A program made the translations under genes and the position numbers. The notes beneath the pieces were generated by a model. That model saw only the letters and a program-made list of their open reading frames with translations, made no database searches and had not been told where the DNA came from. 52,818 nucleotides of DNA from Acidimicrobiales bacterium (GTDB lineage Bacteria; Actinomycetota; Acidimicrobiia; Acidimicrobiales; SZUA-35): positions 1 to 52,818 of the forward strand of contig JABDIY010000075.1 in the NCBI GenBank assembly GCA_013003535.1. Direction: 5' to 3'. Shown in pieces: positions 15,320-23,195 of the stretch; position 1 is the first letter of the stretch; every line of letters starts with the position of its first letter.

Positions 15320-15356
15320 GCGAGTCTCGTGCACGCAGGCGAAGGCGGCGCTCGCC

Positions 15357-15362
15357 TACCCT
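15357..15362 (+). promoter_or_regulatory. candidate -10 hexamer for leaderless GNAT mRNA
   Basis: TACCCT is followed by 8 nt and a GTG at 15371. This favours 15371 over an in-frame upstream GTG at 15329. Confidence 0.4.
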
Positions 15363-15370
15363 TGTACGCA

Positions 15371-16135
15371 GTGAGTTCGGCTGCAGTACCAAACCCAGCA
15401 ACGCCGGTCAGTCGAGGGATCTCGGTAACGGGCCTCGGCAACTCGCGCGTGCGCGTGAGCAACTGGCAGGGAGACCAAGGCGTCGCGCTCGTCGGGCCGG
15501 GCCGAGCATCGTTGCTGCCTTCGATCCACGACCTCCACAAGGTGCTGGATCGACTCAGCAAACGGGGCGTTGCTCGCGCCGTCACCCCGGCGCTGTCGCA
15601 ACGCGACGCCAAGCCGTTCCTTCAAGCTGGGTTCACCACCCACGAACACCTCCACCTGCTCGCGTTCGATCTTCGCAACGGCCCACACGGCCCGGCGCTC
15701 GCGCCGCCGCTGCCTGATGGCTTCCAGCTTCGCAACGGCCATCGCTGGCATGAACACGACGTAATCGCCGTGGACGGAGCGGCGTTCGAATCATTCTGGC
15801 GATTCGATCCAGCCGCATTGCGCGAAGCTCGAAGGGCCACTCCCCGGCATCACTATCGGGTCATCACCAACCATGGCGGCGTGGCCGCCTATGCGGTCAC
15901 AGGACTTGCTGGACAGCGGGGTTATCTCCAACGCTTGGCGGTGCATCCCCGATTCGAAGGCAACGGACTCGGTCGTGCCCTCATCCAGGATTCGTTTACC
16001 TGGCTGCGCAAACGGGAAGCCACCAGAATCATGGTGAACACTCAAGAACGAAACCAACGCGCTCTAGCGGTCTATCGCAGCGTCGGTTTTGAACCCGAGC
16101 CCAGCGGTCTCGTGGTTCTGGAATGGCTTCGGTGA
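15371..16135 (+). CDS. GNAT family N-acetyltransferase
   Basis: 254 aa. The C-terminal half has the GNAT fold: GYLQRLAVHPRFEGNGLGRALIQDSF contains motif A with the acetyl-CoA pyrophosphate loop (RFEGNGLG), and ERNQRALAVYRSVGFEPE is motif B. The N-terminal 120 residues are weakly conserved and may form a second, degenerate GNAT half. The substrate is unknown. It heads a plus-strand run toward trxB; its 3' end overlaps the next gene by 13 nt. In mycobacteria the equivalent place holds a MutT-type gene (Rv3908), so the content of this slot varies. Confidence 0.85.
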   Translation: MSSAAVPNPATPVSRGISVTGLGNSRVRVSNWQGDQGVALVGPGRASLLPSIHDLHKVLDRLSKRGVARAVTPALSQRDAKPFLQAGFTTHEHLHLLAFDLRNGPHGPALAPPLPDGFQLRNGHRWHEHDVIAVDGAAFESFWRFDPAALREARRATPRHHYRVITNHGGVAAYAVTGLAGQRGYLQRLAVHPRFEGNGLGRALIQDSFTWLRKREATRIMVNTQERNQRALAVYRSVGFEPEPSGLVVLEWLR

Positions 16136-18078
16136 AGACCACCGGGGCTGAGCGCCGCCTCAAAATCGCTGTTTTCATCTCCGTCGCGTTCCTGATGAGC
16201 ACGGCCTTCGTGAGCGTGGCCTTCCCACCTCCATCGGCAGCCCAGGAGGACGACCTTGGCCTGGGCGCAACGCTTGGTCTGGTACGACAGAGTGCGTCGG
16301 TGGAATCCGACGGCTTCATCGAGATCACCCTCGACTGGACAGGACCGATCACCGACAATCTGTTCCTGAGCGTGTTGTTTCATCAGCGGATCAACGATGC
16401 CGAAGATCTCGATGCGGCCGCAACGTCGATCCTCAACCGTCGAGACCCCGTTCCCCTCACCGCCTTTGGAACTGATGCCGATGGCAACCTCGTTGCCACT
16501 ATTCCGGTTCGGAGTGTGTCGCCTGCCGCCGATGACCGCGTCTATCTGCCGGGCCCAGGGGTCTACCCGTTCACCGTGGAGATTCGATCAGCGGACGGCC
16601 CGGTGGCCTCGCTCACCTCCACAATCGTGCGGCTGCCCCAGGACCGGTCCACCATGGCCACGGTCGACATGGCTGTGGTGCTGGCCCTCTCCCCGGCCGA
16701 TGGTTTGGACCTGTCGGACGGCCTTTGGTTTCTCACCACTTATCCCGATGTACCTTTTACGATCCAAATGGGCGAAGCGCTGGTGAGCCAATTGGAACAA
16801 GACGAACCACTGGCCCAACAGTTCGCTACAGCCGCCGGCGGCAGGGTGATTCTCAGCGACGCCGGCCTGGACCTCGACCCGTCCGCACTGGAAGAGATCA
16901 ACCAGGGTCAGTTTTTCACAGCAGCGGTGGCCACAACCAACCAACGACTTACTCGCCTCGGCCTCCAGCCATCGTCCGATGTAGTGATGTTGTCTCCCGA
17001 CCTGACCGCGGGCGGCGCCGCTCTACTGGCAGAATCCGGTGTCATCGCTGTCCTTTCCACTCGAACCACCGAGATCGAGACCGGCATCATCACCACACCG
17101 CGCGGATCGGTGGGGCTGGTGCAAGCCGACCATGAAATGACCGCGGCGCTTTCGGCAACGGGATCGAAGCCCTTCGCCACAAGCGATGTGTATGCCCTTT
17201 ATTCACGGTTATCCCTTTTGGCCGAATCCGATCAGACGCCAGTGATTCTGGGCGGGGAGGGCACCGAGCCGCTGGATTCTCAGTCGCTTGACACCTTTCT
17301 GGCCGCGCTGGTGGAAAACGGACCCATCCGACCCGTGTCGCTTTCTGAAGCGGTCGAGGGGCAGCGTCGCAACCCGCTGTTGGCGGCGGAGCGGCCCGAG
17401 CAGGACCTCGTCACAACGGGTGACGCCATCGCAGAACTCCAGCAGCTGGCCGAGACCAGCCGCTCGTTCCGCGGCGTCGACAACCCCGAACTCGAACGTC
17501 TCCTGGCCAACTCACTGAGCCGATCACGAAACCCAGATGACCGGACTCGGGCCATCGACCGTGCGAAAGCGGAATTGTTGGCTGACCTCGCGTCGATCTC
17601 GTTGCCTACCGAGGCCTCGATAACCCTCACGGCGGTCGAGGGACCCCTGCCGCTCACCATTCGAAACACCGCCGATGGCCCTCGGCGGGTCTTGCTGGAG
17701 TTCCGGGGCGACCGGGTGGCCATCGCACAGAACAATGAAGTGGTGGTGGTGCCACCCGGGGAAACCACAATCGAGCTGGACGCCGAAGCGCGCGCCCTGG
17801 GGGTTTCCACGCTCGACGTCACGGCTCGCACCCCTGATGGCACGCGCGTTTTGTCCACCTCTCGCTATCAAATCCGATCCACCGCTGTGCCCGGGTTGGG
17901 CTGGGCGATCTCCGGCACGGCTCTGGCCTTCCTGTTGTTGTGGTGGTACCAAAACAGTCGCAACGCCAAACCGCGTGGCCCACACCTCGTTGGGCTCAGG
18001 CGGTCCTCCCTGCCAGCACCGGCCGACACCGACCCCGGTGTGGCCGCCGACGCCCTTCTTGCCTCGGAGTCGATATGA
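16123..18078 (+). CDS. DUF6049-like large secreted membrane-anchored protein
   Basis: 651 aa. N-terminal signal/anchor (LKIAVFISVAFLMSTAFVSVAF), a large extracytoplasmic region of beta-rich and mixed character, and a C-terminal transmembrane helix (GWAISGTALAFLLLWWYQ) with a short basic cytoplasmic tail. The architecture and location correspond to Rv3909 of mycobacteria, which lies between the NUDIX gene and the MurJ-kinase fusion. Molecular function is unknown; the context suggests cell-wall assembly. The start could also be GTG 16132. The last four bases overlap the kinase ATG (ATGA). Confidence 0.75.
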   Translation: MASVKTTGAERRLKIAVFISVAFLMSTAFVSVAFPPPSAAQEDDLGLGATLGLVRQSASVESDGFIEITLDWTGPITDNLFLSVLFHQRINDAEDLDAAATSILNRRDPVPLTAFGTDADGNLVATIPVRSVSPAADDRVYLPGPGVYPFTVEIRSADGPVASLTSTIVRLPQDRSTMATVDMAVVLALSPADGLDLSDGLWFLTTYPDVPFTIQMGEALVSQLEQDEPLAQQFATAAGGRVILSDAGLDLDPSALEEINQGQFFTAAVATTNQRLTRLGLQPSSDVVMLSPDLTAGGAALLAESGVIAVLSTRTTEIETGIITTPRGSVGLVQADHEMTAALSATGSKPFATSDVYALYSRLSLLAESDQTPVILGGEGTEPLDSQSLDTFLAALVENGPIRPVSLSEAVEGQRRNPLLAAERPEQDLVTTGDAIAELQQLAETSRSFRGVDNPELERLLANSLSRSRNPDDRTRAIDRAKAELLADLASISLPTEASITLTAVEGPLPLTIRNTADGPRRVLLEFRGDRVAIAQNNEVVVVPPGETTIELDAEARALGVSTLDVTARTPDGTRVLSTSRYQIRSTAVPGLGWAISGTALAFLLLWWYQNSRNAKPRGPHLVGLRRSSLPAPADTDPGVAADALLASESI

Positions 18079-19829
18079 CCGCCCCCTACCGGACAGCCGT
18101 TCGCGGTGAACGGCTCGCCGATCGCTACGAACTCGGCACCCATATCGACTCCGGTGGGATGGCCGAGGTCTGGGAGGCCACCGATCACACACTCGGGCGG
18201 ACCGTGGCGGTCAAGATCTTGCATGCTCACCTCGCCCGCGATGCCGCCTTTCTCCGACGGTTCCGCCGTGAAGCGATCAATGCCGCCCGGCTACAGCATC
18301 CCACCATCGTGGCGATCTACGATGCGGTCAGTTACGACGGCCTCGAAGCCATCGTGATGGAGCGAATCGAGGGACGCACACTGCGTTCGGTCCTAGACGA
18401 ACACTCCCGCCTTCCCGCTCGCGATGTGATCGATCTCGGCCGCCAGATCGCCCAAGCGCTCTCAGTGGCCCACGCCGCAGGGGTTATTCACCGAGATATC
18501 AAACCATCCAACATCATGCTTTGCGAGGACCGCCGAATTCGCGTCACCGACTTTGGCATCGCCAAGGCCGGAGAAGACACCGACCTCACCCGAACCGGTT
18601 CCTTGTTGGGAACTGCAAAATACCTCTCTCCGGAACAGGTGTTGGGCGATGAAGTAGACGATCGGTCGGACCTCTACGGACTCGGGGTGGTGCTGTTCGA
18701 AGCCCTCGCCGGCACCGCACCCTTCGACGAAGGAAATGACTACGCAACGGCCCAGGCCCGCGTGGTCAACCCCGCTCCCCGACTATCGCAGTTCCGACCG
18801 GACCTTCCGGCGTCGCTAGATGCACTGGTGGCGAGGCTGCTCGAGCAAGATCCAGCTGACCGACCGGACTCCGCACTCGAATTGTCCGGACTGCTCTCCA
18901 GCATCACGATCGTGTCCGAGGAGTTCGGCGGGGGCGCTCCCGGCGGCGACCGCACCACGATCGACCTGCGTCACAACAGCAGCGGAGTCGATGGCGATTC
19001 AACGGGCGAGATCACCCCAGAACCGAAAAGGCGGGACCGGGGGCGCAAGGCCCTTCCGACCACTCCCCCAGACTCCACGGTGTTGGCCCCCTCGGGCGCT
19101 CCACCCGTAGGCAATGCCGATCTGGACTCGGCAAACCCAAACGACCAAGAGGGCGACGAACCCCCTGTGGACAGGGGTTTCTCGCTGCCCATAGGCAAAC
19201 TCGTGCTTCTCGCCATCGTCCTGGGCACCCTGGGTTTGGTAGCAGCGCTGTTGGATGGGTACCGATCAGATCCCGGTGCTGCCGGCGTCACGAACCCGAG
19301 TGGAGCCACGGACGGTCCCGATGGGGAGAGCGTTTCGCTCACCCCTGTGCAGAACTTCGGGCCGCCGATCATCGTCAGCGGGCAGGCGGTCGACCCGCTC
19401 GGCGACAACACTGAAAACGACGACATGGCCGGCAACGCAATCGACGGCGACCCGGCCACGGCCTGGGTTACGGAGACATATTCCAAACCGGGTTTCTCCA
19501 GCGTCAAGGCAGGGGTCGGCTACCTCCTCACCCTCACCGAACCGTCCGCTCCCTCCGAATTACGGATCACTACACCCACCGAGGGCTGGCGCGCCGAGGT
19601 CTATGTTGGAGACGAATCGGCCGAGTCCCCGGAAGGTTTCACGTTCGGGCCCTATGCGCTCGAACCCCTGGAGGGTGGCGGGGTAGCCGACCTCCGCAAC
19701 GCGTCGGGATCCCATGTACTGCTGTGGATTACCTTTGAGGGGCAGTCGTCGCCCCCAAATCCAGATGGCGAGGAACCGCCTCCCGAACTCGAAAATAGAT
19801 TCGAACTGGCCGAAGTCGTCATCGAGTGA
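18075..19829 (+). CDS. transmembrane serine/threonine protein kinase with extracellular discoidin-like domain
   Basis: 584 aa. An intact Hanks-type kinase occupies residues about 18-275: Gly-rich loop (GTHIDSGGMAEVW), catalytic Lys47 (VAVK), HRDIKPSN (139-146), DFG (159-161) and activation segment TRTGSLLGTAKYLSPEQ. A Pro-rich juxtamembrane linker, one transmembrane helix (about 374-393) and an extracellular F5/8C-like domain (NAIDGDPATAWVTETYS...) follow. Mycobacterial Rv3910 at this locus is MurJ plus pseudokinase plus a similar C-terminal domain; here there is no MurJ and the kinase looks active. The ATG at 18075 overlaps the previous stop by 4 nt; an earlier in-frame start would run deep into the upstream gene. 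Confidence 0.88.
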   Translation: MTAPYRTAVRGERLADRYELGTHIDSGGMAEVWEATDHTLGRTVAVKILHAHLARDAAFLRRFRREAINAARLQHPTIVAIYDAVSYDGLEAIVMERIEGRTLRSVLDEHSRLPARDVIDLGRQIAQALSVAHAAGVIHRDIKPSNIMLCEDRRIRVTDFGIAKAGEDTDLTRTGSLLGTAKYLSPEQVLGDEVDDRSDLYGLGVVLFEALAGTAPFDEGNDYATAQARVVNPAPRLSQFRPDLPASLDALVARLLEQDPADRPDSALELSGLLSSITIVSEEFGGGAPGGDRTTIDLRHNSSGVDGDSTGEITPEPKRRDRGRKALPTTPPDSTVLAPSGAPPVGNADLDSANPNDQEGDEPPVDRGFSLPIGKLVLLAIVLGTLGLVAALLDGYRSDPGAAGVTNPSGATDGPDGESVSLTPVQNFGPPIIVSGQAVDPLGDNTENDDMAGNAIDGDPATAWVTETYSKPGFSSVKAGVGYLLTLTEPSAPSELRITTPTEGWRAEVYVGDESAESPEGFTFGPYALEPLEGGGVADLRNASGSHVLLWITFEGQSSPPNPDGEEPPPELENRFELAEVVIE

Positions 19830-20395
19830 GACACGCCGCCGACCCATCCGCCCTCGTGGCGGCCGCCCAAGGCGGTGATCGCAAGGCCCTCAACCGCCTC
19901 CTTGAGGGCGAGTACGACCGAATCTACGCGGTGTGCCGGCGGGTGATGGGAAACGATGCTGACGCCGCCGACGGTTGCCAGGAGGCGCTGCTCTCAATCG
20001 TCCGGGGACTCCCCCGGTTCGATTCTCGAGCCAAATTCTCAACCTGGTGTTACCGAGTGGCCACCAACGCATGCCTCGATGAGCTGCGACGACGGAAACG
20101 TCGCCCGATCCCGGCCGAGCAGACCGAAGATCTCCCGAGCAGTGGCCAAGAACACGATTCGCAAACTGCGGACCGACTCACCATCGGCGCAGCGCTCGAC
20201 GACCTCGCCGACGACTTCCGGATCCCGGTGGTTCTGCGCGACGTGGTGGGATATGACTACGCGGAGATCGCGGAGCTGCTCAACATTCCTCACGGGACTG
20301 TCCGAAGCCGGATCGCCAGAGGCCGTAAGTATCTTTCTGCCCAAGTCGGGAACCCGGCGGGCTCCGGCGACGTCATAAAACCGAAACGTAAGTAG
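19826..20395 (+). CDS. ECF RNA polymerase sigma factor (SigM-like position)
   Basis: 189 aa. Region 2 (EYDRIYAVCRRVMGNDADAADGCQEALLSIVRGLPRFDSRAKFSTWCYRVATNACLDELRRRKRR) and region 4 (DYAEIAELLNIPHGTVRSRIARGRKYL) are both complete. The locus between the kinase and trxB is that of sigM in mycobacteria, which controls cell-wall and secretion genes; a shared regulon is only inferred. GTG start overlaps the kinase stop by 4 nt. The next gene, 15 bp downstream, is the probable anti-sigma factor. Confidence 0.9.
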   Translation: MRHAADPSALVAAAQGGDRKALNRLLEGEYDRIYAVCRRVMGNDADAADGCQEALLSIVRGLPRFDSRAKFSTWCYRVATNACLDELRRRKRRPIPAEQTEDLPSSGQEHDSQTADRLTIGAALDDLADDFRIPVVLRDVVGYDYAEIAELLNIPHGTVRSRIARGRKYLSAQVGNPAGSGDVIKPKRK

Positions 20396-20410: not shown

Positions 20411-21385
20411 ATGAACGATCTCCCTCCCACTCCCCCACTCCCCCGCTATGGGGACGGCGCTACCCCTGACCCGGTGAGCCGCATCGAGGAGCTGCTTTCG
20501 GCGATGGCGGACGGCGAACTGACACCGGCCGAGCTCCTCGAACTGGAAGAGGCGGCGGTCGCCACCAACTCCACGGTTCAAGAAATGGCCGTACCGTTTC
20601 ATGAAGGGCAGGCGCTGGCGGCGGCCTCTGTGCTGGATCTTCGCTCCCCACCGGCCCTCCGTCATCAACAGCTACGATCTGCCGTTGACCAGCTTGACCA
20701 GCCCGAGGTTGCCAGCCTCGCCGGAGCGCGCGCAACGCTGGCCAGCAAGCAGCATCATCAGCGCCGGCGAATGCAGCGCCTGAGCTCGGTTGCCGCTGCG
20801 CTCGTGGTGGTGGCTGGAATCGGCATCATCGGATCCCAACTCGGCGGTTCTGGCAGCGACACCGCGGCAACAGAAGAAGCAGGTGCCGCCACCACATCGA
20901 GCCGAGAGCTCAACGATGAGTTTTCCGAAGGAGGGACGGCGTCCGATGATGCGGCATCGGACGACGGTGAGCTGAACGAGATGGCTGAGGCACCGCTTGC
21001 CAGCCAGAGCGGTCTCGACGCCAGCGACGGCGTGTTCTTCTACCAGTTACAGGAAAGCCCTGCGGGAATCCAGCCCAGCGAACTCGGCGACCAAGTCATT
21101 GACGGTGCAATCGAGGTTGAGCCGTTCAACAGCGAGGCGGCGCGTGGCGGCGCGGACGCCACCGCTGCCAGCGAGGACATCGGCGATGGAGAAAGCGACC
21201 TTACCAGGGCGGCGTCAACCCCCCGGTGTACCGACGCCGCATTTGCACTTCAAAGCAACGATGACATTCCCGAAATCACCGGCCTTGCGCTGGTGATTCT
21301 GGACGGTCAAACCTACGAGCTTTACCAGATCGCAGATGACAACTTCGCAGTCTTCGAACAAGGCACCTGCAACCGAGTCGACTGA
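20411..21385 (+). CDS. putative membrane anti-sigma factor
   Basis: 324 aa. Residues 22-60 (SRIEELLSAMADGELTPAELLELEEAAV) resemble the N-terminal helices of anti-sigma domains but lack the zinc motif HxxxCxxC. One transmembrane helix spans about 126-144 (SVAAALVVVAGIGIIGSQL), and the outer part is acidic, Ala/Asp/Glu rich and poorly conserved, ending in a small domain with two Cys (PRCTDAAFAL, EQGTCNRVD). The placement right after an ECF sigma gene is the main support (Rv3912 analog). Alternative: a membrane protein unrelated to sigma control. Confidence 0.65.
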   Translation: MNDLPPTPPLPRYGDGATPDPVSRIEELLSAMADGELTPAELLELEEAAVATNSTVQEMAVPFHEGQALAAASVLDLRSPPALRHQQLRSAVDQLDQPEVASLAGARATLASKQHHQRRRMQRLSSVAAALVVVAGIGIIGSQLGGSGSDTAATEEAGAATTSSRELNDEFSEGGTASDDAASDDGELNEMAEAPLASQSGLDASDGVFFYQLQESPAGIQPSELGDQVIDGAIEVEPFNSEAARGGADATAASEDIGDGESDLTRAASTPRCTDAAFALQSNDDIPEITGLALVILDGQTYELYQIADDNFAVFEQGTCNRVD

Positions 21386-21413: not shown

Positions 21414-21752
21414 GTGGACAGCTTCACCCCCGAGCCCGTTTCAAGCGAACCCGAAGACTGGGCCGGTCGCGCCACCGCGACGGTCGTAGGTTACGTTGAC
21501 ACCGTTCGTTCGGCCACCACCGGCCGGGCACTGGTGGCTTCGCGGATCGCGGTGTATGCGTTGGCGATGGGCCTGATCGGGATCGTGATAGCCATCCTGC
21601 TGCTCATTCTGTTGGTGAGACTCGTTGGATCGCTCACCGCCTGGATCCTTCCATTCATCGAAGACGGAGAGATCTGGGGAAGTTACCTCATACTCGGAAT
21701 CCTCTTCATGATCGGTGGACTCATCCTCTGGAGGAAGAAGGAAGCCATCTAA
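21414..21752 (+). CDS. small two-helix membrane protein, unknown
   Basis: 112 aa. Residues 1-45 are soluble; two long hydrophobic segments follow (IAVYALAMGLIGIVIAILLLILLVRLVGSL and GSYLILGILFMIGGLILW) ending in a basic RKKEA tail. The look is of a phage-holin-superfamily-6-like or YqjE-type small membrane protein, but no family is certain. It lies between the anti-sigma gene and trxB and may have its own leaderless promoter. Confidence 0.7.
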   Translation: MDSFTPEPVSSEPEDWAGRATATVVGYVDTVRSATTGRALVASRIAVYALAMGLIGIVIAILLLILLVRLVGSLTAWILPFIEDGEIWGSYLILGILFMIGGLILWRKKEAI

Positions 21753-21830: not shown

Positions 21831-22802
21831 ATGACTTCATCAGACATAGACGTGCGCAACGTCACGATCATCGGTAGTGGACCCGCCGGTCTCACCGCCG
21901 CCATCTACACGGCTCGAGCATCGCTCGAACCCCTGGTGATTGAAGGAGAGCCGTCGAGCACCGGCGATCAGCCCGGTGGCCAGCTGATGCTTACTACGGA
22001 GGTCGAGAACTTCCCGGGATTCCCCGAAGGAATCATGGGCCCAGAACTGATGCTGAACTGCCGAGCCCAAGCAGCTCGGTTTGGGGCAGAATTGAAAACC
22101 GAGAAAGTGAGCAGGGTCGATCTTTCTTCTCGCCCCTTCGGTATTTGGGTTGGAGATCCCGAGGTGGCCGATCCGACCTATCGATCCCATGCGATCATCA
22201 TCTCCACAGGAGCCAAGGCCCTGATGTTGGATCAGGAAAATGAGCAGCGGCTGATCGGCCGTGGTGTGTCAACGTGTGCAACGTGTGACGGCTTCTTTTT
22301 TCGAGACGCCGACATCGCTGTGATCGGCGGTGGCGACTCTGCCATGGAGGAGGCCAACTTCTTGACCAAGTTCGCTCGATCCGTCACGGTCATTCACCGG
22401 CGCGACAGCCTCCGAGCCAGTCAGATCATGGAGGACCGAGCTCGCGCCAACCCCAAGGTCTCGTTCCTTTGGGACACCACCGTGACCGACGTACTGGGCG
22501 ACCAGACCGTTACGGGCGTGGCGTTGGAGAACGTCAAGACCGGCGAAACCGGCACCCTGGATGTCACCGGCGTCTTTGTGGCAATCGGTCACCGACCCAA
22601 CACCGACCTCTTCAAGGGCCAGCTGGAGATGAAAGACAACGGATACCTCGTTACGGATGGGAAATCCACCAGAACAAACGTCGAAGGTGTGTTCGCCTGC
22701 GGTGATGTGCAGGACGACGTGTACCGACAGGCCGTCACCGCAGCAGGTTCGGGGTGTGCGGCAGCCATCGATGCGGAGCGCTGGTTGGAGGATCAGCACT
22801 AA
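21831..22802 (+). CDS. trxB: thioredoxin-disulfide reductase
   Basis: 323 aa, normal length. FAD-binding GSGPAG (15-20), redox-active CATC (149-152), NADPH-binding GGGDSAMEEANFL, and GVFACGDVQDDVYRQAVTAAGSGC at the end. It reduces thioredoxin with NADPH. Ribosome-binding site AAAGGA 4-5 nt before the ATG. Its partner trxA is next door but convergent, whereas mycobacteria have both in one direction. An intrinsic terminator follows at 22811. Confidence 0.96.
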   Translation: MTSSDIDVRNVTIIGSGPAGLTAAIYTARASLEPLVIEGEPSSTGDQPGGQLMLTTEVENFPGFPEGIMGPELMLNCRAQAARFGAELKTEKVSRVDLSSRPFGIWVGDPEVADPTYRSHAIIISTGAKALMLDQENEQRLIGRGVSTCATCDGFFFRDADIAVIGGGDSAMEEANFLTKFARSVTVIHRRDSLRASQIMEDRARANPKVSFLWDTTVTDVLGDQTVTGVALENVKTGETGTLDVTGVFVAIGHRPNTDLFKGQLEMKDNGYLVTDGKSTRTNVEGVFACGDVQDDVYRQAVTAAGSGCAAAIDAERWLEDQH

Positions 22803-22874: not shown

Positions 22875-23195
22875 TTACAGCGCAAGCTCCTCGAGGAGTT
22901 GCGCTTTGGCCTTGGCGCCCTGCACTCGCTTCTCCACTTCGCCCGCACTGAACTTGATCATGGTTGGGATGCTCATGACGCCGTAGCGCATGGCGATTTC
23001 GGAGTGGTCGTCCACGTTGAGCTTGGCAATCTTCACGTTGCCAGCCTGCTCGTCGGCGATCTCATCGAGAATCGGGGCCACCATCTTGCAGGGCCCGCAC
23101 CACTCGGCCCAGAAGTCCACCACTACAGGGGTGTCGGACTCGGCCAAGAAGGAGTCGAAGTTTTCGGCGGTGAGTTCAATGGTGTTCTCGGACAT
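22875..23195 (-). CDS. trxA: thioredoxin
   Basis: 106 aa. Classic fold with active site WCGPC (32-36) in VVVDFWAEWCGPCKMVAPILDE and the cis-Pro loop SIPTM. It is reduced by TrxB, encoded tail to tail on the other strand. Ending 72 bp from the trxB stop, it is transcribed with the same polarity as parB but separated from it by 78 bp. In mycobacteria a cwlM-type amidase gene lies between thioredoxin and parB; none is seen here. Confidence 0.96.
   Translation of the reverse strand: MSENTIELTAENFDSFLAESDTPVVVDFWAEWCGPCKMVAPILDEIADEQAGNVKIAKLNVDDHSEIAMRYGVMSIPTMIKFSAGEVEKRVQGAKAKAQLLEELAL

Follow-up and report, generated by a model that had tools for sequence, protein, structure and literature searches.

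The window, the 52,818-nucleotide stretch of Acidimicrobiales DNA analysed here, encodes what is apparently an active and unfused form of a module known as a pseudokinase, in a genome whose MurJ flippase lies elsewhere and is of another type. On balance, we lean towards reading the window's gene as an unfused and catalytically intact homologue of the pseudokinase portion of MviN in mycobacteria, with the history and the mechanism involving FhaA and the cell wall that are proposed below. Among the papers listed by a literature search, mostly confined to papers outside subscription, none was seen to report an active kinase as a homologue of the MurJ pseudokinase, and the search returned no paper on MurJ in Acidimicrobiia.

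The kinase and its gene row

The kinase gene (18075–19829; 584 amino acids; PF00069, 4.7e-46) belongs to a tight row of genes on the plus strand. The row is headed by a GNAT acetyltransferase-like gene (15329–16135; PF00583, 2.6e-15), which overlaps the gene of a DUF6049-like protein (16123–18078; PF19516, 9.7e-10) that by gene order holds the position of Rv3909. The kinase gene is followed by a SigM-like ECF sigma factor gene (19826–20395; PF04542, 5.8e-20; top NCBIfam match SigM, at 138 bits under the cut-off of 190), a probable anti-sigma factor gene (20411–21385; recognized by its position and a zf-HC2 match of 0.00085, under the cut-off), the gene of a 112-residue protein without a Pfam match (21414–21752) and trxB (21831–22802; PF07992, 9.2e-51). 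Downstream of trxB, open frames and Pfam matches place on the minus strand a thioredoxin gene, parB and, after it, a gene that we take to be ParA-like; upstream of the row, the minus strand also carries genes for a poly(A) polymerase/tRNA nucleotidyltransferase and a histone-deacetylase-like protein. The labels obgE, proB, rodA, pbpA, pknB and sigM used here are presumed from family matches and gene order. The DUF6049-like and kinase genes share four bases, ATGA, so there is no room for murJ between them, as the earlier note had stated; the kinase and SigM-like genes also share four bases.

The thioredoxin gene (22875–23195, minus strand) runs opposite to trxB in the window and in the same-genus loci L193 and L195, and in the same direction as trxB in L196, from another genus of the window's family, and in most of the loci parsed. 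Its orientation in the window's genus is a small local inversion.

The kinase domain, as placed by its Pfam match (18126–18869, plus strand), contains all five residues canonical for active Ser/Thr kinases. The earlier note had named the VAVK lysine Lys47 (18213–18215), the HRD aspartate Asp141 (18495–18497) and the DFG aspartate Asp159 (18549–18551); these are confirmed, and the helix-C glutamate Glu66 (18270–18272) and Asn146 (18510–18512) are kept as well. By its residues, the kinase thus looks catalytically intact. Unlike mycobacterial MviN and the ActPs3 pseudokinases, it keeps the catalytic residues and is free of the activation-loop deletion. The nearest PDB sequences are those of PknB (1e-60) and PknA (1.7e-58). 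It resembles PknB, the PASTA kinase encoded in a cluster with fhaA, rodA and pbpA, in combining a kinase domain of that kind with an outer sensor domain and a single membrane helix, predicted by a hydrophobicity scan at residues 373–392 (19191–19250, plus strand). It differs from PknB in that a Pfam search of its sequence matched no PASTA repeats, the outer domain being discoidin/CBM32-like, and in that the genome has a separate PASTA kinase.

The kinase tree that the earlier note had proposed was informative in part. With eight other kinases of the genome included, the window's kinase groups with the locus kinases of its order (96*), whereas the deep branches are unresolved and long branches meet there. 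For this reason no rooting is claimed, and it is the gene order and the outer domain common to both that would make active locus kinases the source of the pseudokinase.

Comparison with the mycobacterial protein is anchored by structures. According to PMC12599244 and PMC10166564, PDB entries 3OUN, 3UQC and 3OTV are the MviN pseudokinase of Mycobacterium tuberculosis. A protein from one of the fused loci described below matches these entries at 3e-128 to 2e-127, and its motif letters VALT and LSIDHPSR are identical to those in the table of PMC12599244; on these matches, the fused proteins are of the Rv3910 type. The window's kinase resembles MviN (Rv3910), which belongs with the ActPs3 pseudokinases of PMC12599244, in occupying the same locus with DUF6049, sigM and trxB and in its C-terminal domain. 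Unlike MviN, it is unfused and MurJ is encoded elsewhere.

The C-terminal part of the kinase (residues 401–584; 19275–19826, plus strand) was modelled from an alignment of the window's protein with 60 of the 73 named relatives listed, giving a mean pLDDT of 91.3 and a discoidin/CBM32-like core from residue 429. The best solved structures found with Foldseek are CBM32 and F5/8 type C modules (E from 5.4e-6), and structure comparison reaches a Z of 13.8 to CBM32 modules over model residues 29–184, the best match being 7d2a_A (Z 13.8, rmsd 2.5, 120 residues aligned). The outer domain is therefore predicted to have the fold of CBM32 and F5/8 type C (discoidin) modules, and its ligand is likely a sugar. 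It differs from these modules in its low sequence identity, 10–23% among the 50 matches shown, and in lying below every Pfam cut-off (best PF24607, at 0.015). Across the 61 members, searched in Pfam with E up to 1, PF00754 matches 20 (best 1.2e-6) and the AftD module PF24607 matches 24 (best 2.2e-5).

Profile comparison ties the domain to the mycobacterial one. A profile of 49 class members aligned in hhalign with four fused MurJ proteins at a probability of 99.7 (E 9.8e-27, 145 columns), and with five separate kinases from families f53, f62 and f65 at 99.9 (E 2e-34). At the level of sequence profiles, the C-terminal domain of the window's kinase is homologous to that of the mycobacterial MurJ-pseudokinase, which bears out the earlier note's view that it is of the Rv3910 kind. 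The extracellular placement given there also fits, both with the hydrophobic stretch at 373–392 and with the predicted fold.

Gee et al. (2012) is reportedly the original paper on the phosphorylation of MviN Thr947 by PknB and the binding of FhaA. In M. tuberculosis, according to PMC10166564, PknB phosphorylates Thr947, which is then bound by the FHA domain of FhaA; a PknB-MurJ-FhaA link is also given in PMC6180346. The MviN chain in the PDB ends its kinase domain with ADRTEVLGP, and from its place the threonine in these letters would be Thr947. As in MviN, a short tail links the kinase domain of the window's protein to one membrane helix and has a threonine at a comparable distance. Thr294-Thr295 (18954–18959, plus strand), shortly after the kinase domain, resembles the FhaA-docking Thr947 and is a candidate FHA-docking site. 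Thr295 fits the loosest pattern, T..[ILV] (TIDL), and no other; the tighter T.[ILVMF][ILVM] is absent there, and the window's match to [DE].T..[ILV] is a different threonine, at 310. The tail letters at this distance are TTIDL in the window's genus and DRTLVLG, DATLVVA or DATMLVA in other members of the family.

The motif counts leave out 10 of the 95 locus kinases, whose tails are too short, and are to be read with the patterns picked after inspection and related rows not independent. T.[ILVMF][ILVM] is strongly enriched in the window's family, with 12 of 19 tails (2.6 in shuffles), and counts 23 of 85 overall (7.3 in shuffles). The signal is weak with one row per family, the same pattern being found in 3 of 28 against 2.0 in shuffles, and [DE].T..[ILV] in 6 against 1.5. 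Among degenerate kinases, T..[ILV] stands at the shuffled level (8 versus 7.1) and T.[ILVMF][ILVM] at 5 versus 1.5. In one cluster, the genome encodes its FhaA (L376, 3520–4254, minus strand), with FhaA_N and an FHA domain, along with another FHA protein, a PP2C phosphatase, RodA/FtsW and PBP proteins and the PASTA kinase, which carries four PASTA domains (L376, 8983–10962). FhaA_N is present in 97 of 120 class genomes.

Gene order and catalytic state across the phylum

The gene-order survey suggested in the earlier note covered 138 loci: the window, 57 DUF6049 loci from the class, 20 from the window's family and 60 from elsewhere in the phylum. The class sample comprised 120 genomes, 58 of which match the window's DUF6049 protein and 117 MurJ; the family loci were taken from 38 genomes with a DUF6049 match, and those of the rest of the phylum came from a set in which 114 of 246 genomes match. 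Since 43 of the 138 loci are without a kinase hit, some of them on short contigs, the kinase counts rest on 95. A separate murJ precedes the kinase in 47 of these, the two are fused in 4, namely the only f58 loci with a kinase, and murJ is absent from 44. The order seen in the window, DUF6049 then kinase with no murJ, recurs in 18 of the 20 family loci from other genomes, and the remaining two (L199 and L207) have neither gene; it is not due to chance. Ahead of the kinase, a DegV gene (PF02645) is found in 20 of the 47 loci with a separate murJ and in 13 of the 44 without murJ. With the two genes adjacent in 47 of 95 loci and DegV kept in both arrangements, we take murJ and the kinase to be old neighbours, with murJ gone from the window's locus.

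Within the window's order, family f8 has both murJ and the kinase, f7 (one locus) has neither, and f5 (nine loci) and f6 (one locus) have murJ without a kinase hit. In f5 (L072, L087, L091, L099, L100, L101 and L102), DUF6049 and murJ are kept, and no locus kinase or SigM-like gene was found before trxB.

The C-terminal domain alone is too variable for scanning a collection of genomes. Named genomes were scanned with the kinase patterns GGMA[EQ]VW[ERQ] and EAIVME[LRY][IV], and the best 80 loci were kept. These come mostly from MAGs titled Acidimicrobiales, Acidimicrobiia, Microthrixaceae, Actinomycetes or Actinomycetota, and include Aquihabitans sp. G128 (L342, a complete genome), Candidatus Microthrix parvicella RN1 and a few titled as other groups; the set overlaps the coded one, L296, L297, L298 and L370 corresponding to G130, G131, G129 and G023. 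DUF6049 and a kinase with the outer domain are found in 69 of the 80, and murJ in 6 of those 69. The kinase is intact in all 80, a figure uninformative on the loss of catalysis because the scan selected on kinase motifs.

In the survey itself, catalytic state varies with murJ. Among the 51 loci with murJ adjacent or fused, 22 have a degenerate kinase (18 of the 47 with a separate murJ, the other 29 being intact, and all 4 fused), versus none of the 43 readable loci without murJ. The five residues are complete in all 43; in the one remaining locus without murJ, G377, the frame is split. 'Intact' here refers to these five residues only, so that G302 and G239 are scored intact though HRD reads HGD, and G184, G249, G170 and G194 are scored degenerate on the HRD aspartate alone. 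On a tree built from six further proteins of the locus (94 rows, G377 left out), the absence of murJ takes five changes and the catalytic state seven. Of five independent pairs compared for a loss of catalysis confined to loci with murJ adjacent, none runs in the opposite direction; five are too few to reach significance. The confinement of catalysis loss to loci with an adjacent murJ is striking, not proven. Catalytic activity may be the ancestral trait, since intact kinases are found whether or not murJ is present and degenerate ones in lineages scattered over the tree.

Degenerate locus kinases beside murJ are also found within the window's class, in f17 (G009 and G079) and f33 (G106), at loci L058, L090 and L070. 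Far from the mycobacterial type, these are possibly independent pseudokinases.

The window's protein could instead be an ordinary PknB-like kinase unconnected with MurJ and FhaA, placed where it is by history and targeting DUF6049, the anti-sigma factor or other proteins of the row. The persistence of the kinase in 43 loci after murJ loss agrees with such an enzyme, as does the nearness of PknB and PknA among PDB sequences, and the bases that its gene shares with the DUF6049 and sigM genes would point to involvement in the SigM response. However, an ordinary kinase leaves aside an outer domain common to the fused MurJ proteins, the retention of the kinase beside murJ in 47 loci and a tail threonine that resembles the FhaA-docking one. 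We consider this account unlikely, though of real weight. For the gene as the intact, unfused homologue of the MviN pseudokinase part, we count the 51 of 95 loci in which the kinase stands next to murJ or forms one protein with it; against it counts the second kinase of the genome, which has PASTA domains and could act on FhaA.

Place and origin of the flippase gene

That the flippase is encoded elsewhere, as the earlier note supposed, holds in a search of the genome (221 contigs, 95.8% complete). The only gene with a MurJ match above the Pfam cut-off sits on contig C192 and encodes 586 amino acids (PF03023, 2.8e-60; TIGR01695, 222 bits, under the cut-off of 235.6). It is flanked by genes for Obg, an amino-acid kinase with a PUA domain (ProB-like), PspA/IM30 and an AAA ATPase. 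No Ser/Thr kinase is found among these flanking genes, which rules out a MurJ beside another kinase in this genome. With the C-terminal domain homologous to that of Rv3910, neither of the two observations that the earlier note had named as refuting its view was made. The protein (L006, 8197–9957) matches the Pfam profile in two pieces, 3–381 and 371–448, with a long stretch between them.

This place and this type are common to the window's family, f1. A MurJ above the cut-off is present in 37 of 39 family genomes, and 36 of the 37 share this broken shape in their best match (profile about 1–8 to 374–384); the best match of G121 is weaker, longer and of another kind. Inspection of about 4 kb to either side puts murJ at obg-proB or pspA in three genomes of f4, two each of f9, f10, f2 and f1, and one of f7, and with narrower flanks at least one of the obg, proB and pspA neighbours is seen in 30 of 31 f1 sequences. 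MurJ is likewise present elsewhere in the searched genomes of f44, f73, f68, f15 and f18, whose locus is without murJ.

The MurJ proteins at the obg-proB-pspA place are of two kinds. In a tree of 119 of the 150 sequences, the copies of f2, f4, f9 and f10 fall among the class's copies from the sigM locus, and therefore the native murJ moved. The f1 and f7 copies, also from there, group with f44, f59 and f73 in a different deep clade (100*). In topology tests (83 rows, quick tree search), forcing the f1 and f7 proteins into their class costs 381 log units (p-AU 1e-86), whereas the class without them is compatible with a single clade (p-AU 0.71). By BLAST, the MurJ of the window's family is 40–43% identical to that of f59, 42–44% to f73 and 37–42% to f44, versus 24–27% in long matches within its own class. 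The simplest reading of these sequences is a transfer that displaced the relocated native gene; an old paralogue retained there alone is a possible alternative.

Two further arrangements were observed. Several class genomes have a second, divergent MurJ away from both the sigM and the obg places (L217, L219, L221, L231 and L232), and these group in the tree. In f59 (L260, L261 and L262), the MurJ type of the window's family sits at the sigM locus directly before the kinase, which is intact in two of the three.

The native murJ might merely be missing from the draft, the other-type MurJ being an addition and not a displacement. The fragmented and incomplete assembly would allow this, and related genomes of the class often have two MurJ types; yet the broken-shape best match shared by 36 of the 37 family genomes makes it very unlikely. 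Least probable of all is the earlier note's proposal that murJ was replaced here by the kinase or that the murJ-less order is ancestral: the window's family, f2, f4, f9 and f10 do have DUF6049 and the kinase with no murJ between, but murJ and the kinase coexist in 47 of 95 loci across families of the class and phylum. The kinase was therefore no substitute for murJ and is ruled out as its stand-in, and f8, of the same order and with murJ and an intact kinase, is sister to the murJ-less clade of that order (34 rows, 97*), which makes the murJ-less order most simply derived.

A proposed sensor kinase as an old neighbour of murJ

In the history that we favour for the intact, unfused homologue, an old actinobacterial locus would have begun with DUF6049 and murJ, continued with a kinase of the PknB kind, encoded separately and with an outer domain like discoidin/CBM32, and ended in sigM and trxB. 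In the window's order of Acidimicrobiia, murJ would have departed to the obgE-proB-pspA place while the kinase stayed, and the window's family would have come to carry one of the other type there, most simply by a transfer displacing the native gene. In mycobacteria, the same part would have lost catalysis; there it is phosphorylated by PknB and operates as a fusion with MurJ. Judged by its sequence, the window's kinase is probably an active, glycan-sensing member of the stock that gave rise to the mycobacterial pseudokinase.

A possible mechanism follows the parts of the protein. The outer domain would bind a wall or surface glycan, and the kinase would autophosphorylate, Thr294/295 just inside the membrane included. 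The phosphorylated kinase may then recruit FhaA and act on wall synthesis in trans to MurJ, working in concert with DUF6049 and SigM of the same overlapping row.

A longer chain of events can be proposed, which as a whole we hold tentatively and with some doubt. The mycobacterial pseudokinase would derive from an active, glycan-sensing neighbour of murJ; catalysis would have been lost repeatedly and only beside murJ; the FhaA-docking threonine would predate both loss and fusion; the kinase would have stayed alive where murJ left; and the flippase of the window's family would have been exchanged.

The gene of an essential flippase is shown to have moved once and then, in one family, to be of another type. 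The unfused, apparently active module in many actinobacterial families would offer living intermediates for the role of the kinase before the loss of catalysis, for the ligand of the outer domain and for the order in which docking arose. Together they may form a natural series for how a working sensor kinase became a pseudokinase.
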